Part shown: positions 41,830 to 62,354 of the stretch, one piece after another | Layout: every line of letters begins with the position of its first letter | Numbering within the stretch: the first letter of the stretch is position 1 | Virus record (IMG/VR): IMGVR_UViG_3300020060_000010 | Span: 19,546 to 83,545 of that record | Reading direction: 5' to 3' (one strand) | DNA: 64,000 nucleotides | Source of the DNA: a virus | The notes under the pieces: generated by a model | Told to the model about the DNA's origin: nothing | Seen by the model: only the letters and a program-made list of their open reading frames with translations | The model's database searches: none | Program-made: the position numbers and the translations under genes

Positions 41830-41839
41830 GACTACCTCA

Positions 41840-42800: not shown

Positions 42801-42910
42801 TTGTAAGCCCCAATCTCCTCTAGTTGTCGGACTACGATCTTGTACTCTCTAGCGAACTCTGAACTCTTCATATCTTTTTCGAAGTCGCGCCAGTACACAC
42901 TGTCTCTCAC
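42716..42910 (-). CDS. hypothetical protein, 64 aa, GTG start
   Basis: First 35 residues helical (SSEFAREYKIVVRQLEEIG); the last 29 are read through the start of the membrane gene in another frame. GTG overlaps the phosphodiesterase stop (GTGA). Confidence 0.6.
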   Translation of the reverse strand: MRDSVYWRDFEKDMKSSEFAREYKIVVRQLEEIGAYKWYGLWYWLRSASLAFGSQVRRMRGAGL

Positions 42911-44238
42911 GATACGCTGACTCCAGAAACGAATCCGCTTGTACCGTTCGCTGCCAGTGCGAAGAACTGGTCTCCGCCGTACGTACCTGACGCTACCACA
43001 AGTTTGGTACCACTGGCAAGGTCTGTGGCGGTAAAAGTATTGCCAACTCGCTTGAACTCTACCTTGCGACGTCCACCAGATCCGACAGGAGTAGTCTCGA
43101 TTGACCCGAGCAGGAGTGGAGCACCATTGTCGTTGCGGTAGATAGACATCTGCCCATTGCGGCGCCAGAGGACTCCGTAGCCGTACTGCTGGGACACAGT
43201 TGGACTGCTCTCGTCTCGCCAGACAGCATCCGGGCCAACGACTGCCTTGCCCTTGCCACAGCCTACAAACATGCCGAGCCAGCGAGTATCACTTGAACAG
43301 TTGCTGCCGTAGTCGAATGTTGCACGGATCTTGAAGTCGCCGTTGATGACCCCAGCCCATGTCTGGGTGAGTGAGCGGGTGCGAGAACCGACTGGGTTAC
43401 GCTTGACGGAAATCTTTCCGCGAGCCGCGTCCTGGAAGCTCCAGAGACGACCTGTGTTACCGTCCGCCACGTCTGCAGCGGTGACTCCTTCTTGCCAACC
43501 AGGGTAAGCGAAGCGCTTGGCATACGGATCGGCGGTCAATTTACGGCTCTGGCCGGAAACATACCACGGATCGTCAGAAATGAGACCGACTGCGCCTCTG
43601 TCATGGTCAAAATCGCCTTGGATCGGATCTTCGACAGTCCAGGTTGCCATCTTAAGGCCTGCAGCCTTGAAAGCATCGAAAGAAGACTGTGCTGTACCAC
43701 GCGAGATACCAATGTACTCGATACCGGCCGCCTTGATCTGTGCAGGCGTTTGAGCAACTGAACCCTGTACGAGGTACAAAGAGACCAAACCGGCGTCCGC
43801 GATGAGTGCGGCACTGTTATAGTCAAAGGAACTCAGGATAATGGAGCCCTGTAGCCCACGTGCGTTAATGGTCTCAATGATTTCTGCAGCCTCAGAGGCG
43901 TTCTTGGCCTCGACCAGCAGTGTTCGGCCTCCGAATTCGTCCAAAACCTCATCCCACAGGAGAGGAGTGCCGTAGTCGCCACCAGGAATTGGATTCTTGA
44001 CCTTGCCGCGCTTGAACTGGGCGCTGGTGAGGCTACTGACTGCACCAGTCACGCCAATCATGGTCCGGGTGACTGTTTCGTCGTGGATAACGGCGAACTT
44101 GCCGTCTGCTAGCTTACGCAGGTCAATTTCTGGTAGATACCCTGAGTTGGATGTTGCCTTGTAACCTTCTAGACAGTGTTCCGGGTAGATATTGGCTCCA
44201 CCTCTGTGTCCTGCGATCCATGGTGTCTTGATAGTCAT
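42907..44238 (-). CDS. glycerophosphodiester phosphodiesterase (GlpQ-like), 443 aa
   Basis: Catalytic domain in residues 1-255: HRGG (11-14), Y-P-E-H (17-20), E-I-D-L, VIHDETVTRT and LLVEAKNAS, the classical order, though the usual E-N after HRG is E-H here. It hydrolyses glycerophosphodiesters; bacterial GlpQ is an exo-hydrolase of glycerol-phosphate teichoic acid. C-terminal residues 260-443 form a beta-rich, possibly sugar-binding domain (DFKIRATFDYGSN; YGYGVLWRRNGQMS). No signal peptide from ATG 44238, which has AGGAAGCCA upstream. Likely virion-associated or released at lysis. Confidence 0.9.
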   Translation of the reverse strand: MTIKTPWIAGHRGGANIYPEHCLEGYKATSNSGYLPEIDLRKLADGKFAVIHDETVTRTMIGVTGAVSSLTSAQFKRGKVKNPIPGGDYGTPLLWDEVLDEFGGRTLLVEAKNASEAAEIIETINARGLQGSIILSSFDYNSAALIADAGLVSLYLVQGSVAQTPAQIKAAGIEYIGISRGTAQSSFDAFKAAGLKMATWTVEDPIQGDFDHDRGAVGLISDDPWYVSGQSRKLTADPYAKRFAYPGWQEGVTAADVADGNTGRLWSFQDAARGKISVKRNPVGSRTRSLTQTWAGVINGDFKIRATFDYGSNCSSDTRWLGMFVGCGKGKAVVGPDAVWRDESSPTVSQQYGYGVLWRRNGQMSIYRNDNGAPLLLGSIETTPVGSGGRRKVEFKRVGNTFTATDLASGTKLVVASGTYGGDQFFALAANGTSGFVSGVSVS

Positions 44239-44257
44239 TGGCTTCCTAGGTGTTGCG

Positions 44258-44539
44258 TTAGATGATGTAAGTGGTTCCAGGGGTCCAGAGGACAGCCAAA
44301 GGCCGCCTAGCAAAAAACCACTGAACGTTCGCCTGCTTAAGAATGACTGCTGGTTCAAGTAACTCCTCCTCCATGTCTAGTAGTGGCTTGGCCACAGTGT
44401 TAGCCCAGTAATCTACGTCATGCCACAGAGACCAGGTGTAGCCGATGTTGTCTCTCACAACTGCGTTGTCGCGCATGCCAGTAATCTTAGCTAGTAGAGC
44501 CAACCAGTCAGTCTCTTCGATTGCAAGATCAATGTTCAT
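44258..44539 (-). CDS. hypothetical protein, 93 aa, probably leaderless
   Basis: TATAAT six bases before the ATG and no ribosome-binding site. Trp-rich, mostly helical (TDWLALLAKITGM; YTWSLWHDVDYW). Precedes the phosphodiesterase gene, perhaps its partner. Confidence 0.75.
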   Translation of the reverse strand: MNIDLAIEETDWLALLAKITGMRDNAVVRDNIGYTWSLWHDVDYWANTVAKPLLDMEEELLEPAVILKQANVQWFFARRPLAVLWTPGTTYII

Positions 44540-44545
44540 GGGTCA

Positions 44546-44551
44546 ATTATA
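44546..44551 (-). promoter_or_regulatory. -10 element TATAAT for a leaderless gene
   Basis: Overlaps the stop codon of the 52-aa membrane gene; no clear -35. Confidence 0.6.
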
Positions 44552-44705
44552 CTCTGCGAGTTATGAAGAAGTAGATACTTGTCAGTACTGCTCCGATGAA
44601 TAGGCTTACATCCATGTTAAGGCCAAACATACCATAAACCATTGCTCCAAGGATGGCTGTCAGTACAAAGAACACGCCAACTGGATTATTTCTGTAGTAA
44701 TACAT
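44547..44705 (-). CDS. two-span membrane protein, 52 aa
   Basis: Spans at about 8-28 and 32-47, with YYYRNNP in front and TRRV at the end. AAGGAGAAAACC before the ATG. Not recognised. Confidence 0.78.
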   Translation of the reverse strand: MYYYRNNPVGVFFVLTAILGAMVYGMFGLNMDVSLFIGAVLTSIYFFITRRV

Positions 44706-44746
44706 GGTTTTCTCCTTAACTGTAGGTGTTTTCTTCTTCTACAGGG

Positions 44747-44775
44747 ACACTACATGCTGTTTTTCTACTTGTCAA
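44747..44775 (-). promoter_or_regulatory. promoter, TTGACA-N17-TAGTGT
   Basis: Serves the 52-aa membrane gene and the block beyond. A palindrome ATCTCA-N5-TGAGAT lies just upstream (44786-44802). Confidence 0.83.
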
Positions 44776-44785
44776 GTGAATCTCA

Positions 44786-44802
44786 TATTTTGAGATGATG
44801 AA
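44786..44802. promoter_or_regulatory. operator-like palindrome
   Basis: ATCTCA and TGAGAT arms with five bases between, next to the -35 of the promoter at 44747-44775. Confidence 0.5.
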
Positions 44803-44829
44803 CTTTGTAGTGATAACACTTACTAACTA

Positions 44830-44850
44830 CTCAAGTGTAAAATACTTGAG
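44830..44850. promoter_or_regulatory. operator-like palindrome over a -10
   Basis: CTCAAGT and ACTTGAG arms, seven-base centre, spanning the -10 (TACACT) of the promoter at 44834-44862. Best operator candidate in the window. Confidence 0.65.
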
Positions 44851-44862
44851 ATTTCGAGTCAA
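44834..44862 (-). promoter_or_regulatory. promoter, TTGACT-N17-TACACT
   Basis: Upstream tandem promoter for the minus-strand block 44705-41761. Confidence 0.8.
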
Positions 44863-44871
44863 CGAAAAGTT

Positions 44872-44889
44872 CTGATAAATAGTTTTATC
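44872..44889. promoter_or_regulatory. operator-like palindrome
   Basis: TGATAAA-TAGT-TTTATCA, seven-bp arms, about ten bases upstream of the -35 at 44857-44862. Confidence 0.5.
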
Positions 44890-44977
44890 ACTCGGTAACG
44901 ATTTGAAACTGTCATCTGGACCCGTACTTGGTACTCAGGAGATGAAAACAGGTTGGATCTGACAGTAGCACGCCTCA
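44890..44977. other. intergenic region with nested inverted repeats
   Basis: ACTGTCA (about 44911) pairs with TGACAGT (about 44960). Inside it CATCT/AGATG and GTAC-TTG-GTAC form a further stem. No ORF. Confidence 0.45.
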
Positions 44978-45021
44978 GAAACGAAAAATACCCCAGAGGA
45001 GAGACTGACTCTGAGGTATTT
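44978..45021 (-). terminator. rho-independent terminator
   Basis: On the minus strand AAATACCTCAGAG pairs with CTCTGGGGTATTT (one mismatch), followed by TTCGTTTC. Ends the unit with the 64-aa gene. Confidence 0.85.
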
Positions 45022-45026
45022 CCCGA

Positions 45027-45076
45027 CTAGAAAGGAGGTAGTTACCATGATACAGGCTTCAACTACTCAGTGTCAA
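45027..45076. other. overlapping plus-strand super-RBS and minus-strand promoter
   Basis: Plus strand: TAGAAAGGAGGT (45029-45040), complementary to the whole 16S rRNA tail, seven bases before an ATG at 45047 that opens 58 codons. Minus strand: TTGACA-N18-TATCAT (45047-45076), whose -10 is the complement of that start codon, and whose transcript would end at the terminator about 60 bases on. Confidence 0.6.
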
Positions 45077-45267
45077 GAACCGTCACGTAGATACATACCG
45101 ATGGAGTCAGCAGTAGTCTTCAAGGTACCTAGGTTACCAGGGGTCGCCTTCGGATTGGCATGGACGCCGTTCAGGAACCAGACAGCCAAGGTCATGGCCA
45201 GAACTCGTTCGTCATCTAGGTAGTCACCTAGGATTTCGCTCTTCAGAGCGTCAGATGGATCGCGCAT
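45073..45267 (-). CDS. hypothetical protein, 64 aa
   Basis: Helical with an acidic start (MRDPSDALKSEILGDYLDDE) and a hydrophobic centre (VLAMTLAVWFLNGV). AAGGA lies 12 bases before the ATG. The antisense frame at 45047-45223 has a far better ribosome-binding site, so which strand is coding is uncertain. Divergent from the late genes. Confidence 0.6.
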   Translation of the reverse strand: MRDPSDALKSEILGDYLDDERVLAMTLAVWFLNGVHANPKATPGNLGTLKTTADSIGMYLRDGS

Positions 45268-45340
45268 TATATGATATTCCTTAGTAATTTTGATGTTGAT
45301 GCGATAAAATATATTATAGCGTAATCTTTAGGAGATAATA

Positions 45341-46135
45341 GTGCCAAATCAGAAGTTGAAGTTGACCAAGCGTCCTTTGATTGCACCCAAGCAGCAGCAG
45401 GTTGTTGAGTACAACGGAAACACGAAGTATGACTGGCCAGCTATCAAGGCTGAGTACATCGGCGGTTACGAGAAGGAACCCGGTGTAATCTACTTCCCGA
45501 ACACGAAGGAACTTGCGGAGCGCTACCCCGATGTTCCGTACGGTCAGATTCGTAACCGCTGCTCCAAGGAGAAATGGGAAGAGTACAAGCAGAAGGCCAT
45601 GCGAGCCGCTGCTGTTGCTCGCCACAAGGAACAACTCAAGCGCATGAACAACGCCGCCATTTTGTTCGATCAGAACGTGGCCGACGATGCTGCCTTCGCC
45701 ATCAACCTGCTCAAAAAGCAGATGATCCAGTTCGGCAAAATCATGGATCATGACGAAGCCCGCCTGGTTGACATTTTTGAGCGAATCGACGCTGGCGAGG
45801 ATGTAAGCTTCAACGAGTTCAAACCTCTCGTCTCGCCATCTGCGTGGGAATCGATGGGCAAGGCATATGCACTCTTTGTCGAGGTGGGCCGCAAGGCACT
45901 CGGTATCAAGGACGACGAGCCAGCCATCCACCAGCAGGTCAATATCGAGGTCACCCACAACACGACTGTTACACAGGAGCTTCAGAAGAACGACCCAGCC
46001 CGTCTGGCCGCACTTCAAAGAATCTTCCAGAACCAGAACCTTATCCTTCCGGCCGGTGATACAGTAGATGCTGAGATTGTCGAGCCAAAGGAGATTACAG
46101 ATGGAACTGACGAAGAACTTGACGACGAAGACTGA
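45341..46135 (+). CDS. putative small terminase subunit, 264 aa, GTG start
   Basis: First gene of the late block and directly upstream of the large terminase region. Residues 30-80 fit a helix-turn-helix with YDWPAIKAEYIGG, YPDVPYGQIRNRCSKEKW, the DNA-recognition layout of small terminases. Coiled-coil middle and acidic tail (DGTDEELDDED). TTTAGGAGATAATA before GTG 45341. Confidence 0.8.
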   Translation: MPNQKLKLTKRPLIAPKQQQVVEYNGNTKYDWPAIKAEYIGGYEKEPGVIYFPNTKELAERYPDVPYGQIRNRCSKEKWEEYKQKAMRAAAVARHKEQLKRMNNAAILFDQNVADDAAFAINLLKKQMIQFGKIMDHDEARLVDIFERIDAGEDVSFNEFKPLVSPSAWESMGKAYALFVEVGRKALGIKDDEPAIHQQVNIEVTHNTTVTQELQKNDPARLAALQRIFQNQNLILPAGDTVDAEIVEPKEITDGTDEELDDED

Positions 46136-46304
46136 TCGCATGGTTGTTCCAGGCTGGCTTACGTTTGACTTGGCCGTAGAAGCCTGGAATAAACATACTG
46201 AAGGTATTCCTTATGTCAAGTACCTTCTTGAGAAGTACAAGAAGTTCACACTGATTGCCGACAAGAAACCAGAGCCGGAAGCCAAACCGAATGACACAGA
46301 CTGA
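46101..46304 (+). CDS. hypothetical protein, 67 aa
   Basis: AAAGGAGATTACAG ideally precedes ATG 46101, inside the small terminase gene by 35 bases. Helical, basic (VKYLLEKYKKFTLIADKK). Located between the two terminase genes. Confidence 0.75.
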   Translation: MELTKNLTTKTDRMVVPGWLTFDLAVEAWNKHTEGIPYVKYLLEKYKKFTLIADKKPEPEAKPNDTD

Positions 46305-48783
46305 ACAAGAGTACGCAGAGCAGCTACATGCCCTGCTCCAGCCGAGAATCCTTGATGAATACGCAGTACACGTACCACACCCTGCCCAACAGGTAGCTCT
46401 TGCCCTCCCGGCGAAGGAGATGCTGTTTGGTGGTGCTGCTGGTGGTGGAAAGGCCCTGGCCTTGGATACACCTATTCGCACACCACTTGGCTGGACCACC
46501 ATGAGTGATCTACCTATCGGTGCGCTGGTTTATGACGAAAATGGAGAGCCTTGTAAGGTTGTCTGGAAGTCGGAGGTCCAAGAAGGCCGTCCGTGCTATC
46601 GAGTTCAGTTTTCTGACGGATCAGAAATTGTAGCCGACCAGGATCACAAATGGTCTGTTGGGTTAGCAGGCAGCCGAAATCAGAGCCAACACATCAAGAC
46701 TACTGGCGAAATGTTTCGCACTATGGAAACAGCCAAGAGGGTCAAATTCTATATCGACGTAGCCCGCCCGCTTTTCCAGTTCAAGGAAGAATACCCAATT
46801 GATCCGTATATCATGGGCTATTGGCTTGGTGACGGGGATACCAGACGAGGCTATGTGACAATTGGTGATTCAGATTTCGAATCAGTCTCGGCACTGTTTG
46901 AAGCTTGTGGTGAAACTCTTACCAAGCTCGCGCCTATGCATTACAAGGTCGAAGGCTTGACCAAGCGTCTAATTTCTCTTGGTATCGTTGGACCGCAGGC
47001 TGTTGACGGAGTCAAGATGACACCGCGACCAAAGCGCATTCCCCGTCAGTATATCGAAGAAGGCAACATTGAGCAGAGACTCGCACTGCTCCAGGGCTTG
47101 GTTGATAGTGACGGATTTGTAGACTCGGACATTGAACTAACAACAGTCAGCGCCGAATTGGCTAAAGACTATCTCGAACTAATTTTATCTCTCGGTATCA
47201 AGGCGACGATTCGTGAAGGTGTCGCAACTTTGAATGGCCGGATCATCGGCCCAAAGTATCGAATCAAGTTTGTTACCGATATGGAAAGCGCTCGACTACC
47301 GCGCAAGCTGGCTCGCCAAAAAGTTGACGGATTTAGAGGCACACACAACAAGCGATACATTACTGCCATTATCGCTACAGAATCCGTACCAGTACAGTGT
47401 ATCGGTGTAGACTCGCCAAGTCACTTGTATCTCGCTGGACGCGAATTAATTCCGACCCACAACAGCGACTTCCTCCTGATGGCTGCTCTCCGCTACGTGG
47501 ACGTGCCTGGATACTCTGCCATTCTGTTCCGTCGTACGTACAAGCAGCTTATCGAATCAGGCGCTATCCTTGACCGTTTCAAGTCTTGGATGGCTGGCAA
47601 GAACGTGAAAAAGGAAGAGCGAGGCATGACCTGGGTCTTCCCTTCCGGCGCCAAGATTCGCTTTGGACACATTCACCGTGAAGCCGACAAGTACAACTAC
47701 CAAGGTGCTGAATTCCAGTTCATCGGATTCGATGAGGCCACGATGTTCGAGCCTGACATCTACACTTGGGCATTCTCTCGTCTCCGTAAGCCAACTGTGT
47801 CGTGCAACTACTGCTCGTTGCCTCTGACCGGCGCTAAGAATGGCTTCATCCATCTGGCTAGCCAGAAGGAAGCCTGCAATACACCCATGCCGGATGAGCG
47901 AGTGTTGAACCAGTACTCTCCTGCCGAGCGCGACGGAATGACTGTCTTCGACCTGCCACTACAGGTCATCGCTACCGCCAACCCTGGTGGTCTATCTCAT
48001 GAGTTCTTCAAGGAACGCTTCGTAGACCCAGCAGACCCAGACCTTCACGATGAAGAGGAAATGGCCGCGCGCAAGCAGCGCGCCTATATTCCTTCGACCA
48101 TTCGTGACAACCCTTCTCTTAACCAGGAAGAGTACATGGCTACTCTTCAGAACCTATCAATGGTTGACCGTGAGCGCTACCTGAACGGTGACTGGGAGAT
48201 CCTGGAAGAAGGCAATCTGTTCAAGGCCAGCGACTTCCAGTATGTGGAGCGAGGTCCAAGTCCGGATGACGTTAAGTCTCGTGTGCGATTCTGGGACTTC
48301 GCGGCGTCCGATGGTCAGCACTCTGACTGGACAGCCGGAGCACTCTGCTCTATCACCAAAGACGGCCGATGGTTCATTGAGGACATGAAGCGGGTCCGCG
48401 CACTACCTCCAGACGTGGAGAAGCTGGTCAAGAAGACAGCACAAGAAGATGGTATCGGAGTCCGCGTCTATTCCGAGCAGGAGCCTGGCTCGTCCGGTAA
48501 GGCTCTCGTATCTTACTACAAGCGTCACGTTCTCGCTGGCTGGAGATACGACGGAGTCCGCAGTACCGGCAGTAAGACTGACCGCGCTGGCTCCCTCGTC
48601 TCACAGACCGAAGGAAAGAATGTCTACCTCGTCAAGGCATCTTGGAACAAGGCTTTCACTACCGAAGCGAGCCTGTTCCCGGTCGGCGCACACGACGACC
48701 AGGTGGACGCTGCAGCGGGTGCATTTGTAGCAATGACAGTGAACGCAAAAAGAAAAGTGCGACTTGTTACCAGATACAACTAA
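46291..48783 (+). CDS. terL: large terminase subunit with intein, 830 aa
   Basis: Packaging motor ATPase/nuclease. Walker A FGGAAGGGK at residues 46-54 is split by an intein inserted right after the lysine; the C-extein resumes SDFLLMAAL at 392. Walker B FIGFDEATMF near 478. RNase H-like nuclease: FWDFAASDGQHSDW near 666, YSEQEPG near 730 and DDQVDAAAG near 802. Mature extein is about 493 residues, normal for the family. ATG 46291 overlaps the upstream gene by 14 bases. Confidence 0.95.
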   Translation: MTQTEQEYAEQLHALLQPRILDEYAVHVPHPAQQVALALPAKEMLFGGAAGGGKALALDTPIRTPLGWTTMSDLPIGALVYDENGEPCKVVWKSEVQEGRPCYRVQFSDGSEIVADQDHKWSVGLAGSRNQSQHIKTTGEMFRTMETAKRVKFYIDVARPLFQFKEEYPIDPYIMGYWLGDGDTRRGYVTIGDSDFESVSALFEACGETLTKLAPMHYKVEGLTKRLISLGIVGPQAVDGVKMTPRPKRIPRQYIEEGNIEQRLALLQGLVDSDGFVDSDIELTTVSAELAKDYLELILSLGIKATIREGVATLNGRIIGPKYRIKFVTDMESARLPRKLARQKVDGFRGTHNKRYITAIIATESVPVQCIGVDSPSHLYLAGRELIPTHNSDFLLMAALRYVDVPGYSAILFRRTYKQLIESGAILDRFKSWMAGKNVKKEERGMTWVFPSGAKIRFGHIHREADKYNYQGAEFQFIGFDEATMFEPDIYTWAFSRLRKPTVSCNYCSLPLTGAKNGFIHLASQKEACNTPMPDERVLNQYSPAERDGMTVFDLPLQVIATANPGGLSHEFFKERFVDPADPDLHDEEEMAARKQRAYIPSTIRDNPSLNQEEYMATLQNLSMVDRERYLNGDWEILEEGNLFKASDFQYVERGPSPDDVKSRVRFWDFAASDGQHSDWTAGALCSITKDGRWFIEDMKRVRALPPDVEKLVKKTAQEDGIGVRVYSEQEPGSSGKALVSYYKRHVLAGWRYDGVRSTGSKTDRAGSLVSQTEGKNVYLVKASWNKAFTTEASLFPVGAHDDQVDAAAGAFVAMTVNAKRKVRLVTRYN
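46453..47463 (+). mobile_element. intein with LAGLIDADG endonuclease in TerL, 337 aa
   Basis: Begins with alanine (ALALDTPIRTPLGW) in place of the usual Cys or Ser, and ends LIPTHN followed by extein Ser. Splicing block features are present: D-T-x-I-x-T-P near the start, H-L-Y-L-A near the end. Two LAGLIDADG helices at IMGYWLGDGDT and LLQGLVDSDGFV indicate an intact homing endonuclease. Insertion exactly in the P-loop means terminase is inactive until splicing. Confidence 0.93.
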
Positions 48784-48790
48784 CGCTTGA

Positions 48791-48796
48791 TATAAT
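48791..48796 (+). promoter_or_regulatory. -10 element TATAAT for a leaderless gene
   Basis: Seven bases before ATG 48804; eight bases past the TerL stop. Confidence 0.6.
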
Positions 48797-48803
48797 TGAT
48801 ATC

Positions 48804-49019
48804 ATGACGAGACCGATTGTAATCACTGGGCTAAATCTGTCCGATGGGCAGAAGGTTCTACTCATGACTCCAGAGTACCTGGACGCCGAAGATTCAGACG
48901 CCATTAGTGAGAAGATGCACGAACTTTTCCCTGGGGTGCAGTTCTTTATTTTGTCCGGTGGATTTCAAGCTTTAACGTTCGGTAAAGACGTAGACATGGT
49001 AATTGGAGAAGTAGAGTGA
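48804..49019 (+). CDS. hypothetical protein, 71 aa, possibly leaderless
   Basis: No ribosome-binding site; TATAAT seven bases upstream. Pattern RPIVITGLNLSDGQKVLLMTP suggests a ferredoxin-like fold (quoted in part: VITGLNLSDGQKV). Located between terminase and portal. Confidence 0.75.
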   Translation: MTRPIVITGLNLSDGQKVLLMTPEYLDAEDSDAISEKMHELFPGVQFFILSGGFQALTFGKDVDMVIGEVE

Positions 49020-49207
49020 GTAGTCCAGAGCAGATTGTACCTAAAGAAGTAGTCATTAGCAAGGAATTTATTTCTATTTTGGCTATTGTTTTTGGTACCC
49101 TTGTACTATCGCTTGGTTGCGGCTTCGCTTTGGGTTGGCCGTTCGGGCTGATCGTAACAGGAGTGGTTTCAACAGTGTTCGGTTTCATTCTCGGCCTAAG
49201 TAAGTAA
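49016..49207 (+). CDS. two-span membrane protein, 63 aa, GTG start
   Basis: Spans at about 21-38 and 41-61. GTGA overlap with the previous gene. A membrane protein between terminase and portal is unusual; not recognised. Confidence 0.75.
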   Translation: MSSPEQIVPKEVVISKEFISILAIVFGTLVLSLGCGFALGWPFGLIVTGVVSTVFGFILGLSK

Positions 49208-49215
49208 GGTAAACA

Positions 49216-52200
49216 ATGGGCTTTCTCGACAATGTGTTTCGTAAGAGCGTAAGCTCTGAGGTTGAGACCAAGAAGCGCGGATTCGTAAACTTGGGTGGCG
49301 GAAACTTCGGTTTCGGCAACGGATACGACCGTGGCAGTAAGTGGGATGACTTTGAGTACGCCCAAGACCGTGGTTTGGACCTTGTTGTTTGGGTATATCG
49401 CTGTGTAGACGCTATCGCGAACAGCCAGGCTGGCGTCACTATCAATACTCACAAAAAAGGTGATCCTCTCAACTCATTCGTTGAGATGGACAACGTCTTC
49501 AATATCTTGAACTCTTGGTCCAACCCATACGAGAACTCATTCAACTGGCGTTACCGCCTAACTGCCCAACTACTTCTTTCTACCCAGGGTGCCTTCATTG
49601 AGGTCTCTAAGACCGCAAGTGGCAAGATTATGCATGCCTACCTGCTTAACCCAGGTCAGGTTGAGGTCGTTCGTCACCCCACCCAGTTCGTGGACCACTA
49701 CAAGGTCAACCGTGGAACTCATATCGAAGAGGTTCCCAAGGACAATATCATCTGGGTCATGATTAAGCCTCGCCCAGGCGACCCTTACACACAGATGACT
49801 CCGATTACTTCCGCCGGTGTCGCAATCGATACTGACTATCTCGCCCGCAAGTTCAATGCTAACTTCCTGAAGAACGATGGCCGCCCCGGAATGCTTATTG
49901 CCATCAATGGCGACGCGGACCAGGACACCACCGCTGAAATTCTTGACCAGTTCAGAGGCGGTCCTGCTGCAGCCGGTATGCCGGTTGTCATCGAGGCAGA
50001 CGGCATGGACGTTATCGACATGCAAGGTAAGCCACGCGATGCACAGTGGGAAGAAGCCATTGCGAGCGCCAAGGATACAATCCTTGCTGCATTCGGTGTG
50101 CCAGAGTCTGTCCTTGGTAACGCCTCCGGCCGATGCCTCCGTGCTTCTGAGAAGGTTCACCTGGCCAACGGTTCTATCAAGAAGGCCGAAGAACTTGTCG
50201 GTCAGACCGTTGAACTTATGCAGACCTGGAAGGGCACCAACCAAAAGGTCAATGCCCGCGTCGAGTACGCAGCCAAGGAACCAATTTACAAGCTGACTAC
50301 ATTTTCTGGTCGCACCATCGAGACCAATGGCGAGCACCCTCTCTACATGGCTACCTGTAGCGCGTGGGGAAAGTTTAAGCGTGACTTCTACGCGCACGCA
50401 TGGACACCCATGCATGCAATCAGCCTCAACTACAAGCGTCACGACGCGGTTGGTGACGGAACTTACACCGAGGTCGCTATCCCTCTTCACTTTAATGATG
50501 AAGATGGACCAGATTTCAACTTTGATGACGCTTTCGAAGATGGAAAGAACCTTGACGTAGTTCCTGACTACATCTTCAAGGCCAGCGCTGAAACCAAGCG
50601 TTCTTTCCTTTCCGGCGTCTACTCAACTCATGGTCGTGTTTCACAGCACACAGCGTTTGATGTAGTTGTCCCAAGCCTCCAGTACGCCTCAGATCTTCAG
50701 ATTATCCTTCAGCGTCTTGGAATTAATGCTTATGTCAATACAAAGAAGCTAACTCGCGTCGTTTCTATCGGTGGCAAGGTCAATATCGTCAATTTCTTGG
50801 CTCAGGTCGAGATTGTTGGCGACAACGAGGCCAAGGCCATCGCAGTTTTTGAGCGTCTGTCTACCGACACAACTCGTGAAATCAACTTCCACCGCTCCGA
50901 TGACCTTCCAGAAGGCTTCATCTGGGACCGAATTGCAGACGTTGAGCTAATTGGCGTGGATCAGACAGTTGCTATCACCATCAACAAGGGCGACAACAGC
51001 TACCTGTCCAGCTTCCTTGAGCACAATACCTACTCTAACGCTGAAACTGAGAACGAAGGCTTCTGGGTTGGCACCATGAAGCCTCACTGTCAGGCAATTT
51101 CGCGTGGACTTGAGCCACTAACTGGTTCAATCACTGACGATATTACCTTGAAGTTCAATTTCAACGAGATTGACGTTCTTGAGCGCGTCGAGCGCAAGCG
51201 TCTTGACACAGTTAAGCAGGATTGGGCTTCCGGAGCACTAACTCAGAACGAATATCTTGAGGCTATCGGTCGTCCACGCGTCAAGGACCCACTTGCTGAC
51301 GTTTATATGTTGCCGAATGGCCTTCCAATTGGTGATCCTGACAACGTTCAGGCATACTGGGATGCTATGCGCCTACTTTCCGAGATTCAGGCTCCAAAAC
51401 AGCAAAATATGCTTGGTGCAAGCCCATTTAGCTCTAACGGAGCTATTGGTGATGGCATTGTCGGCGGTCGTAATGATATGATTACCGGTCAGACAGCAGC
51501 AGTTGGTATCAACAGCGGTCAGACCATCAACCAGCAGGCCGCTCGTACTCTCCGCTCTGCCAATCACAATAATACGACACCGGCTGCAGTGAACCCGAAC
51601 GCCGTAACGGCCGTGTCTGACCGTGTTTCGCAGCTAATCAACAAGACTGATGAAGTTGAGGCTGTTATCGAGGTCAAGCAGATCGATATGAGCGATCCTC
51701 ACAAGAATGTGCGCCACAGAATGCACGGATTCCTTGAAGGATGCCTCGAATCTTGGTCCAGCAGACAGATTAGTGTTGTTTCCGACCGCGTGAGCCACGT
51801 CAAGGTCCGCAAGGGAACTCGTCACTGGGACGGCGAGACAAAAGTAGACCGCGTACTCGATACTGGCTACATTGTCGAGCAGGATCAGTGGATTACTGAC
51901 CTCAAGGCAAACATCGCTCCATCTATCCGTAAGACACTTCGTGACCGCGCGTTCGATATTGCTACCGAACTCAAGGAAAACGGTCACGTACGTCCCAAGC
52001 CTGGCTCAGGCGCACTGGAGACCCTCCTAGGTGAAGATTACAGTGACCAGATCAAGGCAATCGCAGATTGCGCAGTAGATTACGTCTCTGAGTCAGCCAA
52101 GAGTCAAACTGAACTTGTTGCCAAGCACATTTCGATCCTGGACAGCGACAACCGCTCAATTGATGAGATCAAGTCCACTCTGGATTCCGAGACCTTCGAT

Positions 52201-52482: not shown

Positions 52483-53678
52483 TGTCGGAATGGCTGACAG
52501 TCAGTGGCAACCCAATCGTCGCTGACGAGTCTAAGACCATGAAGATTGTACGAACAGTTGGCGGTGCTCGTAGATACGGTCAGCCAAAGGGCTCCATCAT
52601 CGTACGAGATGGCAAGGACCCTCTGGATGCCTTGGTGGCACTTCCGAACGATCGTGAAGGCTACGAAAAAGTAGCTGACCTAAACGGCAACGTTTACTAT
52701 GTCGGCTTCGTCAAGGACCCAAAAGGTAACGAGACGTGGGTAGTAGAAACTGCTGATGGTCAGAAGGCCAAGGAAGCGACCTCCAGTGAGATTGCTTTCT
52801 CGTGGCTCAATAACCAAGTTGGTGGAAACAGCGCTACACCAGATGAGCGCTTGCCAGATGTGGTTCTTTCTAAGCCTACCGACTCAGCAAGAATGCGTAT
52901 CGAGAAGGCAGAGCTTAACAGACCAGAATACGGACTGTCACAAGCACAAGGCGCGTCACTTGGCGTTCTGAAAGAGGGGGAACTCGTCAAGTACCGTCAA
53001 CTACGAGATAGCGGACTGGATCACGCTCACGCCTACAAGCTGTCTCATTCGGGTTCACCAACCCCGACACCTAAGCCAAAGCCAACTCCGGCCCCAGCTA
53101 AGAAGAAACAAATGGACACAGCAGTCGAATACAAGAGACAGTTTACTACCGAGCGCCTGGAAGAACTGGGCAAGGCTGGTAAAGCTTTCAAGAACCACAA
53201 CGGTGACTGGTCTTATCCAGTCGAGTCCGAGCAGGATCTCAAGAACGCCATCCAGGCAGTGGGGCGTTGTGCACCAGCAGATCGCAACGGACTTATCCGC
53301 TACCTGAAGCGTCGTGCGTCTGCTCTCGGAAAGCGCGACCTGGTGCCAGATCAGTGGAGTGGCCAGAAAGACGAGATGGGTTGGGACATGGAAGAAAAGG
53401 TCCATGGCCACCAGACTCTTGAGCGCGCACCAGGCAAACGAGATAATTGGGTAGAGATCGCAGGTGGGCTTCCTCCTTACATCGAGCACATCGCTCAGGC
53501 TCTCCATGAGCGTGAAGGCTTCACTATCAGCCGCGCTATCGCCACTGCCGTCAATCGTGTAAAGCGTTGGGCTGCAGGTCTGGATAATGTAAAGCCAGAC
53601 ACTCGCGCAAAAGCAATTAAAGCCTTGGCTCAGTGGACCGCGCTAAAAGCAAAGAGCGCCGCAAAGCGCAATAAGTAG
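52482..53678 (+). CDS. capsid-assembly protein with DUF6582-like domain, 398 aa
   Basis: N-terminal 130 residues are strand-rich; a Pro/Lys linker (PTPTPKPKPTPAPAKK) precedes the segment GDWSYPVESEQDLKNAIQAVGR and LIRYLKRRASALG, typical of a small domain found in capsid-associated proteins of actinophages. The C-terminal 80 residues are basic. Starts on the portal stop (one-base overlap). Possible role with scaffold or internal head proteins. Confidence 0.75.
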   Translation: MSEWLTVSGNPIVADESKTMKIVRTVGGARRYGQPKGSIIVRDGKDPLDALVALPNDREGYEKVADLNGNVYYVGFVKDPKGNETWVVETADGQKAKEATSSEIAFSWLNNQVGGNSATPDERLPDVVLSKPTDSARMRIEKAELNRPEYGLSQAQGASLGVLKEGELVKYRQLRDSGLDHAHAYKLSHSGSPTPTPKPKPTPAPAKKKQMDTAVEYKRQFTTERLEELGKAGKAFKNHNGDWSYPVESEQDLKNAIQAVGRCAPADRNGLIRYLKRRASALGKRDLVPDQWSGQKDEMGWDMEEKVHGHQTLERAPGKRDNWVEIAGGLPPYIEHIAQALHEREGFTISRAIATAVNRVKRWAAGLDNVKPDTRAKAIKALAQWTALKAKSAAKRNK

Positions 53679-55031: not shown

Positions 55032-55150
55032 TATTAACCATAGTTTTGTTGTAAAATGAATATGTCGTTATCGATCAGAGACAAGTGCTGACTTGTAGCA
55101 AAGATAACAAACCTAATTTTAAGTCATATATATCTAAAAGGATATACCAA

Positions 55151-56473: not shown

Positions 56474-56501
56474 TCGATCGGAATAATCTCTCAATGAGAG
56501 T

Positions 56502-56533
56502 CTCTCCTGCTATAATGGCAGGAGAGATTTTCG
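56502..56533 (+). terminator. terminator with TATAAT in its loop
   Basis: CTCTCCTGC-TATAATG-GCAGGAGAG, nine-bp stem, then ATTTTCG, just after the capsid gene. The loop is a consensus -10, so the element may stop capsid transcription and restart it for 56552-56749. Confidence 0.82.
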
Positions 56534-56551
56534 TTATGTACAAGGAGAAAC

Positions 56552-56749
56552 ATGCCAAATATCACTCTTACGCTTCAAGGTGGGCTTACTGAAGGAGCGT
56601 TTGCCGTGAACCAAGCTAAAATCGACAAGGTGTTGGCCGACATGGAAAATGGTGTTGACTTTATCAAGTTTATCAATGGCCAGGACGGATACACCTATCT
56701 GACAAAGTGGTATCAAACCACACACATTAGCTGTGTGACAATTTCTTAG
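56552..56749 (+). CDS. hypothetical virion-region protein, 65 aa
   Basis: ACAAGGAGAAAC before the ATG. NITLTLQGGLTEGAFAVN then a helix; a possible decoration protein by position only. Flanked by terminators on both sides. Confidence 0.75.
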   Translation: MPNITLTLQGGLTEGAFAVNQAKIDKVLADMENGVDFIKFINGQDGYTYLTKWYQTTHISCVTIS

Positions 56750-56769
56750 TCGCCACCTAAGGAGGAACG

Positions 56770-56800
56770 CCCTGGTCAGAGATGGCCAGGGTTGTTCTGA
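56770..56800 (+). terminator. rho-independent terminator
   Basis: CCCTGGTCA-GAGA-TGGCCAGGG stem followed by TTGTTCTGATTT. Ends the 65-aa gene unit. Confidence 0.85.
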
Positions 56801-56807
56801 TTTATGG

Positions 56808-56813
56808 TAAAAT
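56808..56813 (+). promoter_or_regulatory. late -10-like element TAAAAT
   Basis: Between the terminator and the next gene; same form as upstream of 55151, 45341 and 62391 (TGGTAAAATTTAC, TTGTAAAATGAAT, GATAAAATATA, GTTAAAATTGG). Confidence 0.5.
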
Positions 56814-56841
56814 TTACTTAGAACGTTCAATGGGAAGTGTT

Positions 56842-57168
56842 ATGTCTGATTTGATTATCCAGCAGGGCACGGATGACTCTTTTGTATGGCCAGTCACCGA
56901 TGCTGATGGCCTACCCATTGATCTAACCGGTTGGTCTGTAAGCGCACAGGTTCGCAATATTCGTGACAATATCGTACACGAGTGGAATGACGAAGAAGAG
57001 AACGTTGCTTACCAAGATGGACTGATCTATATTCTCTGGACCAGTACTGAATCTGCCGCATGGACTTGGACTGAAGGCAAATACGACCTTGAGGCCACTC
57101 TGCCTGGCGGAAATGTGATTCGACTGGACCAAGGTTTTATTTCATTAGCTAAGGAAGTTACACGATGA
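56842..57168 (+). CDS. fibre-associated beta-domain protein (BppU-N-like), 108 aa
   Basis: GTDDSFVWPVTDADGLPIDLTGWSVSAQVR (quoted in part: LPIDLTGWSVSAQVR) matches the N-terminal domain of phage baseplate or fibre proteins such as BppU. GGGAAGTGTT before ATG 56842. Confidence 0.8.
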   Translation: MSDLIIQQGTDDSFVWPVTDADGLPIDLTGWSVSAQVRNIRDNIVHEWNDEEENVAYQDGLIYILWTSTESAAWTWTEGKYDLEATLPGGNVIRLDQGFISLAKEVTR

Positions 57169-57425
57169 CTATTATTGTAGGCAATCCTGGCCAAGGCGGA
57201 GCAGGTCCAGTTTCAACCGTACAGCGTTACGCGCGCCTGCATACACAAGATGAAGCTCTAACCGTTTGGGTTATCCAGCACGATCTCGGTTATGACCCCG
57301 CTGGCATCACTGTCGTTGACGAATTCAATAACGTGCACTGGCCGAATATCACTTACCCCACAGTTAATAGTATAATTAGACTGGACTTCGAAACGCCTGT
57401 ACGTGGTGTTTGTCGCCTATCATAA
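57165..57425 (+). CDS. fibre-associated beta-domain protein, 86 aa
   Basis: WVIQHDLGYDPAGITVVDE and the final F-E-T-P-V-R-G-V-C-R-L follow the common H-x-L-G-x-x-P small beta domain of tail fibres, also seen at the end of the next gene. ATGA coupling. Confidence 0.78.
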   Translation: MTIIVGNPGQGGAGPVSTVQRYARLHTQDEALTVWVIQHDLGYDPAGITVVDEFNNVHWPNITYPTVNSIIRLDFETPVRGVCRLS

Positions 57426-57435
57426 GGAAAAGTAA

Positions 57436-58044
57436 ATGGCAACACAAAATTTCTATGGTGACGCAGCCTTCAAGAAGACTGTCACCGTTACAGGCACTAT
57501 CACGCATGCTGATGGTACATCTGTTGGTCAAGGCGCGACCAAGGGTCAGGTAGACGCCGCTTATAGCAACGCTAGACTCCGCTCCAACCACACCGGTACA
57601 CAGGCTGCAGCTACCATCTCTGACTTCAGTACTGTTGTTGACGGTCGTATCGATACAAAGATTGCTACTCTAGTTGGCGGCGCTCCTTCAACATTCGACA
57701 CTCTGTCTGAGATCGCAACATGGATTGCGTCTGACGAGTCAGGCACAGCCACTCTAGTAGGTCGAGTTACAGCAGCCGAATCTGCTATTGATGCTCTGGA
57801 AACAGGAGCAGGCGGCGCAGTTTTCAAGGCTAATGTCGGAGACGGAACTGCCTTCTCCTATACAGTCACTCACTCACTCAACACATTTGATGTATCTGTA
57901 GAAGTTTTCGAAACAACTGGCAACCGTCAGACAGTTTTTCCAGTCATTACACGCCCTACTTTGGACACTGTGCTTGTGGACTTTGATGGTGCAGCATCTG
58001 CACCAGCGTCGGCATCGCACCGGGTTATTGTTAGAGGAAGCTAA
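57436..58044 (+). CDS. fibre protein, 202 aa
   Basis: Helical, alanine-rich first two-thirds with S-N-H-T-G-T-Q and I-A-T-W-I, typical of trimeric phage fibres, then a C-terminal beta domain (TVTHSLNTFDVSVEVFE). CATAAGGAAAAGTAA before the ATG. Confidence 0.82.
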   Translation: MATQNFYGDAAFKKTVTVTGTITHADGTSVGQGATKGQVDAAYSNARLRSNHTGTQAAATISDFSTVVDGRIDTKIATLVGGAPSTFDTLSEIATWIASDESGTATLVGRVTAAESAIDALETGAGGAVFKANVGDGTAFSYTVTHSLNTFDVSVEVFETTGNRQTVFPVITRPTLDTVLVDFDGAASAPASASHRVIVRGS

Positions 58045-58964
58045 TGCCACAAAAAATCTATGGCCTTGGCGTAGATGAGGTTTCTGATTTTAGTACAGTC
58101 GGTGCTCTAGTCGCTAAAGCCTCTGATGCCAACGCAGCCAGATCTGCCATTGGCGCAGGCACATCGAGCCTTGCTCTTGGCACAAGCTCAATCACTGCCA
58201 AAGCAGGAGACTATGCTCCAGCATGGACTGATGTCACCAGTAAGCCTGCTGTAATCGGTGCTGGTGTAGATGCTGCCGCTGCACGTACGGCAATTGGTGC
58301 TGGAACGTCTTCCCTGGTTCTTGGAACTGGTTCAGGCAATGCTAAGGCCGGTGACTACCAGCCCACCTGGACACAGATTACCTCTAAGCCAGCAGTCATT
58401 GCAGCAGGAGCAGACGCCGCGGCGGCCAGAACCGCTATTGGAGCGGGAACCTCCAGTCTTGCACTAGGTACATCAAGTTCAACCGCCAAGGCTGGCGATT
58501 ATCAGCCAGCGTGGACTGACGTAACTTCAAAGCCTACGTTCCTTGCTTCTGGGTCTACAGCACAGATCGCAAGAGATGCTATCGGAGCCGGTACTTCAAG
58601 CCTCGCAATCGGCACCTCGAACGTAACAGCTAAGGCTGGTGACTGGACTCCTTCTGTTTCTGAGATCCAAGGTACAACGTCTTTCGGCCGCGACATGATG
58701 GCGACTACAAACGCCGCTTCAGCCAAGACTCTATTGACTCTGACCAAAACCGACGTAGGCCTTGCCAACGTAGCTAACACGGCAGACTCCGAGAAGTCAT
58801 TCACACCAGACCAGATTAGCTTCAGTTCCTTTGCAGAAGAGATCCTTGCCTGCGCAGACGCTGAAGCGCTTCGAGCACTGATCAATATCTACTTTGTTGG
58901 CCTAACTGAAGATACAAGCTCTCTACCTTCCGATTCACTTATCGTACGAAAGAGCACTGACTAA
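58044..58964 (+). CDS. repeat fibre protein, 306 aa
   Basis: Four tandem repeats of about 44 residues, each with A-R-(S/T/D)-A-I-G-A-G-T-S-S-L, then (A/G)KAGD(Y/W)xP and (T/I)SKP. Repeats are imperfect at DNA level, so they are old or selected. TAATG coupling with 57436-58044. Probably part of the same virion appendage. Confidence 0.85.
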   Translation: MPQKIYGLGVDEVSDFSTVGALVAKASDANAARSAIGAGTSSLALGTSSITAKAGDYAPAWTDVTSKPAVIGAGVDAAAARTAIGAGTSSLVLGTGSGNAKAGDYQPTWTQITSKPAVIAAGADAAAARTAIGAGTSSLALGTSSSTAKAGDYQPAWTDVTSKPTFLASGSTAQIARDAIGAGTSSLAIGTSNVTAKAGDWTPSVSEIQGTTSFGRDMMATTNAASAKTLLTLTKTDVGLANVANTADSEKSFTPDQISFSSFAEEILACADAEALRALINIYFVGLTEDTSSLPSDSLIVRKSTD

Positions 58965-58967
58965 CCT

Positions 58968-61900
58968 ATGGCAGTCCCAACAGGTGTCATTGGTCGTACA
59001 GCTAAGGTTTTTGTCAATACCGGCGCTAATACACTAAGCCCAGCTACTAGTGTGATTGATGTTAGTTCTGGCGTGCCATCTCAGTCTATTCAGACTGGCG
59101 ACGTTATGTTCCTTTTCTTCACCTTCTCGCAGAGTGCTAGCCTTGGAACGTTGACTCCACCAGCCGGTTGGATTCTTGTCGCTTCTGTTTCTGGTACTGC
59201 TGCCAATATGTCAGTATTTATTTATATGAAGGCGCGTGAATCTGGCGAAACCAGCTATTCTTGGACTCTAGGTTCCGGTGCTACGCCTAACGCTCGCTTT
59301 GCGTGGGTAAGAGATGCAGTTGTCACTGATTATCAAAGTAGCACTTTCCATATTCGCGGTGACAGTGGTTTTGGTAGCTCGACAACTAATATCGCAGCAA
59401 GCTTGACTACTCTTGAAGATGATATGACCGCATATGCATTTTCATTCGATAAGTCAAATCCGAATGGCGTTGCGCGAACCGAATCTCAGCATTCAGTTTC
59501 AAACTTTACCAAGGTTGCTACTTGGGCTAACGATACAGCGACTGAAGGTTGGACTAGCACTGCGGTTATGGAAACAGTGCTTGTTGGTTATAAGCAAATG
59601 CCAACTGCTGGTGCAACTGGATCTGCCACTGTTACTTATCCATATGCAAACGGCACCAACGGTTGGTCTGGCATTATTGCTCTGAAGCCAGCAGAATCTC
59701 TTGAGACTCCTCCTACAGGCGTTATCGAAACTGCTTTCATCCCGAACTTCTTAGATACTAAGCTAACTGTCGGCGCTTCTGTCACACAAGGCAGTACATT
59801 TAAGATTCGAGTCGGCCTAGAACCTACCTTGACCGGTGCAGTCGATTTTACTGGCGCTATCTCTATCAATAATCTTGCTACTGCTACAGCCACCGGATTG
59901 ACGGCTGGTACCAAGTACTACGTCAGTTTCTTGATTGATGATGTACTTCAAACTGATTACCAGCTATCTGGCAGCACTACAGGCTACGGACCTGGTACAT
60001 ACAAGGCTCTTGCTGGCTCTTGCCAGGTAACTGGGTCCAATCACGCCTCTCTAGCGGCCATGGCTGATGAGGAAGCGCTCTTCCTCGCGCACATGGGTGA
60101 CATCCACTACGAAGACGCAGACAATGCCAGTGACTGGTTGCAGGGCATGCGTTCATCCATGACCGCCGCTAACCAGATCGAACTCATGAAGAACACTCCA
60201 ATGAGCTACATCTGGGACAACCACGACCGTATCATCATCGACACCCTCAACACCGGCACCACAGATCCTGAAACAGTAGATCTGTATCGCGAGATGGCTG
60301 GAACTGAGTGGTCAGCAGAAGACGCAATGTACTCGACCTGGGTAACCGGTGGCGTACGATTTATCCACACTGACCCTTGGACACTTCGTGATGACCCCGA
60401 CCTTGTGTCAGAGCCTCGCAATATGTTTGGTGCGACTCAGAAGGCGTGGATCAAGGCGACAATGCTGGCTTCCACGGAAGCTATGATCGTCTGGTTCTGT
60501 TCTTTCCCCAACCATAACGCTCAGAACGGTCGCTGGAACTCATTCCAGGACGAAGTTGACGAGATGGGTGCTTGGGCTACCGCCAATCCTTTCGTGAAGC
60601 ATCGCCTGATTATGATTGGTGGAGACTCACACGACCTTCGCGCAGATTCTGGTACCCGCACAGTCGGTCTCGTCGGAGATGGCTTTCCAACCCACAACTT
60701 CATCGGCGTGCCTACTCTAAACGTCTCTGGCTTTGACCAAGGTTCAGATACTCTCTGGGATACTGGCAACTGGGATATTGCACAGGCAGTAACTGGCGCT
60801 GGCTCAGGATCTTACTCTCGCTTGACTTGGACCTATTCACAGTATCCAGACACGGTTGACATGCTCTGGGAGGCGATTGACGGCAGTGACGGCACTGTTT
60901 TGGCCTCATATCGTCGTCTCGGTAGCCTGCCTAAGGTCAAGGTCTTCCAAGGTGGCGGTTTCGTAGACACTCCTTCTGTCATCGGTTTCAAAGTCGCAGA
61001 TGCCCGCGAACTGATTCAGGCATCAATGCACTTCATTGTTTCTCGCCCGAACGAATTCAACACTGGCTGGGAGCGCACAGGAGTTACGCTCACTGATTAC
61101 TCGACACCTTCAACAATTCTGACCGACCAGACACTAGACTCCAGAAATATATTGACCGATATCACTGTCTCTGCGGACGTTATTGTGACTAGATCTATGA
61201 TTAATGGTCACATTTACGCTGACGGTGTTGGATATTCTCTTCTTTTGGAAGATTGCGAAATTGACGCAAGTACTTTCGACGGAGCGGCAGTAGGGTTCCA
61301 GAATGTGACCATTCGTCGCTGTAACATCTACGGCGGAGCTAACTCTGTTATTGGTAGCAGTAATATCATTATCGAGGACTCTATCCTGCACGATCAATAT
61401 CTTGCTCCAGGATCTGGCGCACACCAGAACGGTTTCTTGTCAAATGGTGGATCAAACGTAGTGATTCACAACTGCGTCATCCATGCCAACCAGCCCGACA
61501 ATGGCTCCGGTGGCGGTGTCTCCACGAACCTTTCTCTGTTTGGTGACTTTGCTCCAATCGCAGACGTTACTATCGAAGGATGTTACTTCCCAGCAACACC
61601 AGGCGCATACAGTGTATCGCTCGGTTACAACCCAGGTTGGCCTGAAGAAGGCAAGGAGTTCGGAGATAACCCAACGAACGTTATTTTCCGCAACAATGTG
61701 TTTGAGCGCGGAGATTCTGGAAATGGTGGCGTGTTTGGACCTGTTACCAGCTTCCTTGATGACAACGGTAATATTTTCGAGAACAACACTTGGGAAGATG
61801 GCGAACTCATCACTTTGACCGGCGCGACTGGTATTTACCACTCTATCTTCGGAGCCAACCCACACGAGGCACAAACAGTTGGTACGGACAGTATCGACGT

Positions 61901-62354
61901 AACTGTAGCTACGGCTTTCTATACCTTCTCTGGTGCATCTGTAGGTTGGACATGTGTCGGAGCAAGAGTCTACGTGCCTCCATTCATTACGCGACCAGAG
62001 TCTTTGGTCGTCAAGGCGTGGGCTGGTACAGAAACTCCTGACCTTGCTGGTGCAGCTACTAAGTCTGGTGTAATCACCAACCCAGTAGTGGGGTGGAACG
62101 AAGTTCTATGGGACAGTCCAATCTCGATGACACCTTCTTCGCCAGTCTGGATTGGATATAACACTGGCGATGATCGTTATTTCTACTCTACTGTAGCCAA
62201 CTCACCACGACAGTCATTGACAACTCCATATTTGTATCGTGCAGACACTAGCGACTTCTCGGCCCGCTCTCGCGTATGCGCAGAGGGAGGAGCTACTACA
62301 AATAGCATTCTCGGATTCGGTTGCGATATTCTTGTCGATGACGGTGTAGAGTAA
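58968..62354 (+). CDS. spike protein: PhoD-like phosphatase, beta-helix and DUF4082-like domains, 1128 aa
   Basis: Residues 1-340: virion-attachment and beta domains. 345-670: PhoD-like metallophosphatase with G-S-C (about 348), GDIHYED (about 376), WDNHD (about 414) and GGDSHD (about 552) metal-binding motifs. 690-945: parallel beta-helix (CEIDASTFDG, VTIRRCNIYG, IIIEDSILHD, VTIEGCYF). 975-1128: DUF4082-like beta sandwich (VVGWNEVLW). PhoD enzymes cleave phosphodiesters, including teichoic acid. A polymer-degrading spike is likely. Confidence 0.88.
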   Translation: MAVPTGVIGRTAKVFVNTGANTLSPATSVIDVSSGVPSQSIQTGDVMFLFFTFSQSASLGTLTPPAGWILVASVSGTAANMSVFIYMKARESGETSYSWTLGSGATPNARFAWVRDAVVTDYQSSTFHIRGDSGFGSSTTNIAASLTTLEDDMTAYAFSFDKSNPNGVARTESQHSVSNFTKVATWANDTATEGWTSTAVMETVLVGYKQMPTAGATGSATVTYPYANGTNGWSGIIALKPAESLETPPTGVIETAFIPNFLDTKLTVGASVTQGSTFKIRVGLEPTLTGAVDFTGAISINNLATATATGLTAGTKYYVSFLIDDVLQTDYQLSGSTTGYGPGTYKALAGSCQVTGSNHASLAAMADEEALFLAHMGDIHYEDADNASDWLQGMRSSMTAANQIELMKNTPMSYIWDNHDRIIIDTLNTGTTDPETVDLYREMAGTEWSAEDAMYSTWVTGGVRFIHTDPWTLRDDPDLVSEPRNMFGATQKAWIKATMLASTEAMIVWFCSFPNHNAQNGRWNSFQDEVDEMGAWATANPFVKHRLIMIGGDSHDLRADSGTRTVGLVGDGFPTHNFIGVPTLNVSGFDQGSDTLWDTGNWDIAQAVTGAGSGSYSRLTWTYSQYPDTVDMLWEAIDGSDGTVLASYRRLGSLPKVKVFQGGGFVDTPSVIGFKVADARELIQASMHFIVSRPNEFNTGWERTGVTLTDYSTPSTILTDQTLDSRNILTDITVSADVIVTRSMINGHIYADGVGYSLLLEDCEIDASTFDGAAVGFQNVTIRRCNIYGGANSVIGSSNIIIEDSILHDQYLAPGSGAHQNGFLSNGGSNVVIHNCVIHANQPDNGSGGGVSTNLSLFGDFAPIADVTIEGCYFPATPGAYSVSLGYNPGWPEEGKEFGDNPTNVIFRNNVFERGDSGNGGVFGPVTSFLDDNGNIFENNTWEDGELITLTGATGIYHSIFGANPHEAQTVGTDSIDVTVATAFYTFSGASVGWTCVGARVYVPPFITRPESLVVKAWAGTETPDLAGAATKSGVITNPVVGWNEVLWDSPISMTPSSPVWIGYNTGDDRYFYSTVANSPRQSLTTPYLYRADTSDFSARSRVCAEGGATTNSILGFGCDILVDDGVE

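Follow-up and report, generated by a model that had tools for sequence, protein, structure and literature searches.

In Bacillus, GlpQ and PhoD act on wall teichoic acid, the former as an exo-acting and the latter as an endo-acting enzyme. Phages of Bacillus, Staphylococcus and Enterococcus are known to encode phosphodiesterases, mostly GDPDs, thought to attack wall polymers. GDPDs associated with phage tails have been surveyed (PMC10194240). The GDPD fold is found in phage K gp155, in the central spike of phi812, and in proteins of phages CN1A and Leaf (gp66). Proteins under the widely used annotation of 'purple acid phosphatase' are encoded in turn by the Microbacterium phages Rowlf (gp26), Corn21 and Pumpernickel, and their function has been stated to be unresolved (PMC12352085).

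Relatives of both GlpQ and PhoD are encoded by the phage described here. The DNA analysed, referred to as the window, is a stretch of 64,000 nucleotides corresponding to bases 19546-83545 of the 83,545-base IMG/VR record IMGVR_UViG_3300020060_000010. Its spike protein is similar to B. subtilis PhoD (2YEQ; PF09423) in fold, in the succession of PhoD_N and catalytic domains, and in the Cys/Asp/Tyr/His iron site. It differs in having a phage adaptor, a tailspike-like beta-helix, a C-terminal beta domain and two changed calcium-site residues, and in lacking a Tat signal. The 'purple acid phosphatase' proteins of the Microbacterium phages are about 32-35% identical to the spike along the adaptor and the PhoD domain, which they similarly combine; judged by profile and by the Cys ligand, they too would be PhoD proteins. 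Their genes often follow a fibre-like gene, as the spike gene does, but the proteins sampled lack the beta-helix. The window GDPD shares its fold with all the phage proteins of this type mentioned above, and resembles B. subtilis GlpQ (5T91) both in fold (Z 28.0, rmsd 2.1 Å, 228 residues in the predicted model) and in five catalytic or metal-binding residues. In contrast to GlpQ, it is a phage gene product, features an extra lectin-like domain, and its substrate is putative. Unlike the GDPDs found on virions, it is free-standing and probably equipped with a Tat signal, and it retains an E-x-D motif where nearly all relatives have E-x-S. The adaptor of the window spike is also present on the GDPD proteins of Leaf and CN1A. 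The parts are ordinary, phosphodiesterases on phage virions being already known; what is new is a fibre adaptor on which PhoD and GDPD are apparently exchanged, along with a probable second, exported enzyme.

The phage record and its spike protein

The record carries a DNA polymerase III alpha gene at its left end, and stops on the right just past the head-tail connector. Tail genes are therefore missing and the genome is incomplete; no terminal overlap was found in the 83,545 bases. For both major capsid protein and polymerase, the highest similarity (about 41-46%) is to the Gordonia phages Gray and GMA6, joined in the case of the capsid by Brevibacterium phage Cantare; the phage is thus, on these markers, a distant relative of that myovirus group. 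The marker relatives indicate that this is probably a phage of Actinomycetota. DNA-level relatives of 42-64 kb were not found among phage records, and tRNA genes, sought as a clue to the host, are absent from the 64,000-base window. That a GlpQ-like and a PhoD-like protein occur in the same phage, as originally predicted, is borne out by their presence in a single 83,545-base record. A second contig, IMGVR_UViG_3300020061_000094, matches window 44025-52913 with 99.94% identity over 8.9 kb and independently connects the 5' end of the GDPD gene with the terminase and portal genes.

Both these virion genes are interrupted. An intein with a LAGLIDADG endonuclease domain is located in the Walker A region (GGGK..HNS) of the terminase large subunit (46291-48783, plus strand), and a second intein, with a LAGLIDADG-like domain, lies within the portal protein gene (49216-52482, plus strand). 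The interval 34000-42000, between a leftward block of genes and the virion genes, hosts only short rightward ORFs, and its plus strand is purine-rich.

The spike gene and the genes preceding it are organized as follows.

57436..58044, plus strand: head decoration or fibre-like structural protein, head module (phrog_2647 head decoration, E 4.9e-22)
58044..58964, plus strand: fibre (shaft) protein of the 'head fiber' family (phrog_5711 head fiber protein, E 1.6e-39)
58968..62354, plus strand: spike of 1128 amino acids, with adaptor, Fn3, PhoD, beta-helix and C-terminal beta domain
59058..59669, plus strand: N-terminal adaptor domain, residues 31-234, common to GDPD-bearing phage fibre-tip proteins
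59703..59984, plus strand: Fn3 or PhoD_N-like domain, residues 246-339 (PhoD_N in five family members; Fn3 structural matches)
59988..60947, plus strand: PhoD catalytic domain, residues 341-660, with C352, D378, Y381, D417, N418, D425, D553 and H555
61062..61841, plus strand: right-handed beta-helix, tailspike-like, residues 699-958 (Pfam Beta_helix; 6E1R)
61920..62351, plus strand: C-terminal domain rich in beta structure, residues 985-1128 (from the model's secondary structure; pLDDT low)

Compared alone to Pfam PhoD (PF09423), the spike scores 18.1 bits, below the cut-off of 27, so that a single sequence makes PhoD a weak lead. A profile of the phage family (17 rows, 16 of them PhoD-bearing) matches B. 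subtilis PhoD 2YEQ with E=2.1e-28, the best value for a purple acid phosphatase being 1.7e-3, and Pfam PhoD is matched by 16 of the 17 aligned members. The best Foldseek match of the spike model is again 2YEQ (2.2e-13), and the two structures superpose with a VIA Z of 27.2 (rmsd 3.5 Å, 387 residues). Plant purple acid phosphatases tie with 2YEQ on fold score (VIA about 26 versus Z 27.2); assignment to that family was rejected, as both the profile and the Cys ligand favour PhoD. The protein is a true relative of the PhoD family, and the PhoD-like domain initially proposed at 58968-62354 is confirmed.

The label of spike is supported as well. The beta-helix is recognized by Pfam Beta_helix (1.4e-7) and matches the tailspike 6E1R with Z 12.2, and the gene starts 3 bases past the fibre gene at 58044-58964. 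The C-terminal portion of the spike had no significant match to the DUF4082 domain of locus L003, in a search in which the query also held a second protein. L003 (8906-12187) belongs to another phage, and encodes a protein featuring the same adaptor-PhoD-beta-helix order, 52% identical to the spike and decorated by this extra N-terminal domain. A paralogue of the spike beta-helix, 34% identical over 273 columns, is found in the same record to the left of the window (L002:5065-6192, minus strand). It is part of a secreted-looking protein with a signal peptide and a Pro/Thr/Ser linker, and adjoins further beta-helix-like and TIG-domain proteins. The gene at 57165-57425 and the 3' end of 57436-58044 (both plus strand) seemingly encode a common C-terminal module, VxHDLGYDPAGITVVDEFNN-like, which also terminates unrelated phage proteins.

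An adaptor common to PhoD and GDPD proteins

The N-terminal domain of the spike is found in proteins of both enzyme families. In blastp, it is 32% identical (75 bits) to the corresponding region of L053, a GDPD protein. The spike-family profile detects the adaptor in 12 of 22 GDPD contigs; in the loci that were read, it is part of the GDPD protein. The adaptor alone, compared to 50,697 phage records, gave one match, to Microbacterium phage ValentiniPuff gp77, annotated as GDPD; a search with the L053 adaptor added Clavibacter phage CN1A and the Microbacterium phages Leaf and Dewdrop. The presence of GDPD is confirmed by Pfam in ValentiniPuff, Leaf and CN1A. PhoD proteins of Microbacterium phages carry the adaptor as well. 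In most cassettes of either kind the gene just before that of the enzyme is fibre or collagen-like, at a distance ranging from -4 to +7 bases, and a fibre gene directly precedes the adaptor-GDPD gene also in CN1A. The PhoD relatives of Streptomyces phage Larnav and Microbacterium phage Pumpernickel sit among metabolic, not virion, genes, and the cassette is thus not always beside virion genes. The C-termini of the shaft proteins are weakly similar in PhoD and GDPD cassettes. The hypothesis that a motif in them serves as docking signal was discarded, since the score of the window shaft is reached by about 6% of control tails, and that of L003 by 0.3%.

With PhoD on some copies of the adaptor and GDPD on others, the two look like exchangeable tips of virion fibres. 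Such an exchange is the strongest hint that both enzymes have one common task at the cell surface, and fits a shared type of target, plausibly a phosphodiester-linked surface polymer. The cultured carriers of the adaptor infect Microbacterium and Clavibacter, which provides a hint to the host of the window phage. Clavibacter, like Microbacterium, is a member of the Microbacteriaceae.

The tip might be mounted on the tail instead of the head or neck, a reading to which we give somewhat less than an even chance. The beta-helix resembles those of tailspikes, and the gene preceding adaptor-GDPD in CN1A is annotated as tail fibre protein. Against this, the spike gene lies in the head module, between the capsid and the head-tail connector genes, and comes after homologues of head decoration and head fibre proteins. 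The 58044-58964 product has 'head fiber protein' homologues in Gordonia phages, and in Gordonia phage Gray the slot between capsid and connector is occupied by a homologue of 57436-58044. In Leaf, too, the adaptor-GDPD protein is encoded within the head module, past the capsid gene. Location of the tail genes off the record was counted against a tail spike; it is also the reason why a tail position is possible. The position of the gene speaks rather for a head or neck fibre.

The free-standing GlpQ-like protein

The second enzyme is encoded on the opposite strand, in a leftward set of genes located away from the virion genes, and has neither an adaptor nor a fibre part.

42907..44358, minus strand: GlpQ-like (GDPD) gene, with start at ATG 44238 or, preferred, at TTG 44358
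44254..44358, minus strand: putative signal peptide of twin-arginine type, MNQQSFLSRRTFSGFLLGGLWLSSGPL...; 101 bases are shared with the end of the upstream ORF
43549..44226, minus strand: GDPD catalytic domain, with motifs HRG, E-x-D, HD and E-x-K (alignment; pLDDT)
42910..43377, minus strand: C-terminal beta-sandwich, galectin/legume-lectin-like, moderate confidence (predicted model)

The gene was expected at 42907-44238, and is indeed there, on the minus strand and with a start probably further upstream; read on the plus strand, the interval has stops throughout. The product matches Pfam GDPD (PF03009) with E=1.1e-15 and 58.9 bits (cut-off 23.6). The barrel is modelled by AlphaFold with pLDDT mostly 85-95, and is also close to the C-terminal domain of phage K gp155 (Z 27.4). 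GDPDs are defined by two catalytic His and three acidic metal ligands (PMC10194240). All five are kept (H11, H52, E37, D39 and E110, numbered from the ATG), and loss of metal ligands, the objection foreseen to the original prediction, does not apply to the GDPD; for the PhoD domain its outcome is ambiguous. The GlpQ-like and PhoD-like proteins are both credible phosphodiesterases of the respective families.

The E-x-D motif has been compared in loci L043-L065 and in phages Leaf, CN1A, ValentiniPuff, Yara, Ankus, ZL12 and XacN1. In nearly all GDPDs borne by phage fibres, and in the Nakamurella relatives, the motif is replaced by E-x-S; among the GDPDs compared, the Asp is kept only in the window protein and in XacN1. 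In the GDPD tree the window protein forms a very long branch beside XacN1, and is not nested among the adaptor-borne GDPDs; this placement may be an artefact. Most phage relatives carry the GDPD at the end of fibre-like proteins.

The frame upstream of ATG 44238 is open as far as TTG 44358, which is preceded by a strong Shine-Dalgarno sequence, GGAGGAGGAGTTAC. Translation from the TTG gives a twin-arginine motif followed by a hydrophobic stretch. Random sequence of matching composition was examined at 25,675 starts, none of which was picked by a simple detector of Tat-type signals. In the whole record the detector picked eight starts, several of them nested, and only TTG 44358 is accompanied by a strong ribosome site. 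Clear Tat signals (RRTVLGALGLG) are carried by the actinobacterial relatives L064 and L065. A coding-like codon signal in the GDPD frame begins at about 44330; inside the 101-base overlap, the frame of the upstream ORF scores better as coding than that of the signal peptide. On balance, the protein is probably exported from the infected cell by the Tat system. Signals found by scanning for promoters and terminators around the gene barely exceeded those in shuffled sequence, and no claim is thus made on its expression.

The protein might instead scavenge phosphate or glycerol-3-phosphate, inside the cell or after export, in a role that has nothing to do with the cell wall. Glycerophosphodiesters are common substrates of free-standing GDPDs, and the window protein would have no export signal if ATG 44238 were the true start. 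We regard this as unlikely, as a Tat signal is very unlikely to arise by chance and as the C-terminal lectin-like domain (VIA Z 13.6, rmsd 2.5 Å, 126 residues; pLDDT about 60) is common to phage fibre GDPDs and to Tat-signalled actinobacterial proteins.

Metal site of the spike and roles of the two enzymes

The metal ligands of reference are those reported for B. subtilis PhoD (PMC4223295), Tyr-210 and His-438 having been assigned via the alignment and the family motif. The iron ligands C180, D207, Y210 and H438 correspond to C352, D378, Y381 and H555 of the spike, and the set is complete. The calcium ligands D265, D266, N271, N272 and D436 correspond to D417, N418, I424, D425 and D553. Two of these, D265 and D436, are kept; the changes of D266 to Asn and of N272 to Asp are conservative, the latter having been called so (PMC4223295), and N271, replaced by Ile, is lost. 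In B. subtilis PhoD, the N271A change abolished activity and D266A drastically reduced it (PMC4223295); catalysis by the spike domain is therefore likely, but not assured. A domain that has lost catalysis and merely binds would account for the changes at D266 and N271, and most of the fibre-borne GDPD relatives have likewise an altered metal ligand, E-x-S. Yet the ligands C, D, Y, D and H do not vary within the phage PhoD family, Asn is still able to ligate calcium, and the 52% identical L003 protein keeps S-N-D at the calcium-site stretch. Loss of catalysis seems rather improbable.

GDPD was not found in any of 22 other PhoD-bearing records, nor PhoD in any of 29 other GDPD-bearing phage records (22 viral contigs; XacN1, Yara, ZL12 and Ankus; ValentiniPuff, Leaf and CN1A). 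The two catalytic domains are hence together in the window phage only, and in none of the 51 other records tested; many of these are fragments, and the absence is weaker than it appears. A working pair is expected to recur, and the lack of recurrence does not support coordination; a coordinated GlpQ-PhoD module was rejected on this count. Of the degradation of a shared polymer originally envisaged, the part that stands is that both proteins are credible phosphodiesterases, along with the fit of the adaptor exchange to a shared type of target. Coordination as a virion pair is not supported, the GDPD being free-standing, on the opposite strand and likely Tat-exported. An improbable reading is that GDPD (exo) and PhoD (endo) are both on the virion and jointly cut wall teichoic acid at entry: the two families do share a record, and GDPDs are found on the virions of other phages, with close folds in the phi812 central spike and phage K gp155, but the window GDPD has the features just listed and no adaptor or fibre part, and in none of the other phage records tested do the two enzymes occur together.

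Wall teichoic acid is a plausible substrate by analogy to Bacillus. Gordonia, among others, is not known for glycerol-phosphate polymers. Some actinobacteria do have such polymers, as exemplified by a lipoteichoic acid of Streptomyces (PMC3196553).

The explanation we favour, with moderate confidence, is that the spike is the enzymatic tip of a virion fibre, that PhoD and GDPD are exchangeable at this position, and that the GDPD of the window is a separate, Tat-exported arm. The product of 58044-58964 would form the fibre shaft, to which the spike would be anchored by its N-terminal domain. The beta-helix would serve to bind a surface glycan; phosphodiester bonds of a host cell-surface polymer would be cut during adsorption by the PhoD-family metal site. 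Cleavage of a phosphodiester polymer by the virion is likely. In related Microbacteriaceae phages, PhoD and GDPD may represent exchangeable solutions to one task. The GlpQ-like protein, exported by the host Tat system from the infected cell and provided with its lectin-like domain, would trim exposed or released polymer from outside, for example freeing progeny from debris or masking the receptor. More tentatively, actinobacteriophages might possess a common fibre platform with swapped PhoD and GDPD tips, possibly borne by the capsid and not the tail, to which the window phage would add a Tat-exported GDPD, the polymer being attacked both at entry and at release.

The finding of an adaptor carrying either PhoD or GDPD in Microbacterium and Clavibacter phages suggests a job for the genes filed as 'purple acid phosphatase'. 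The hypothesis is concrete, and open to test in cultured phages.
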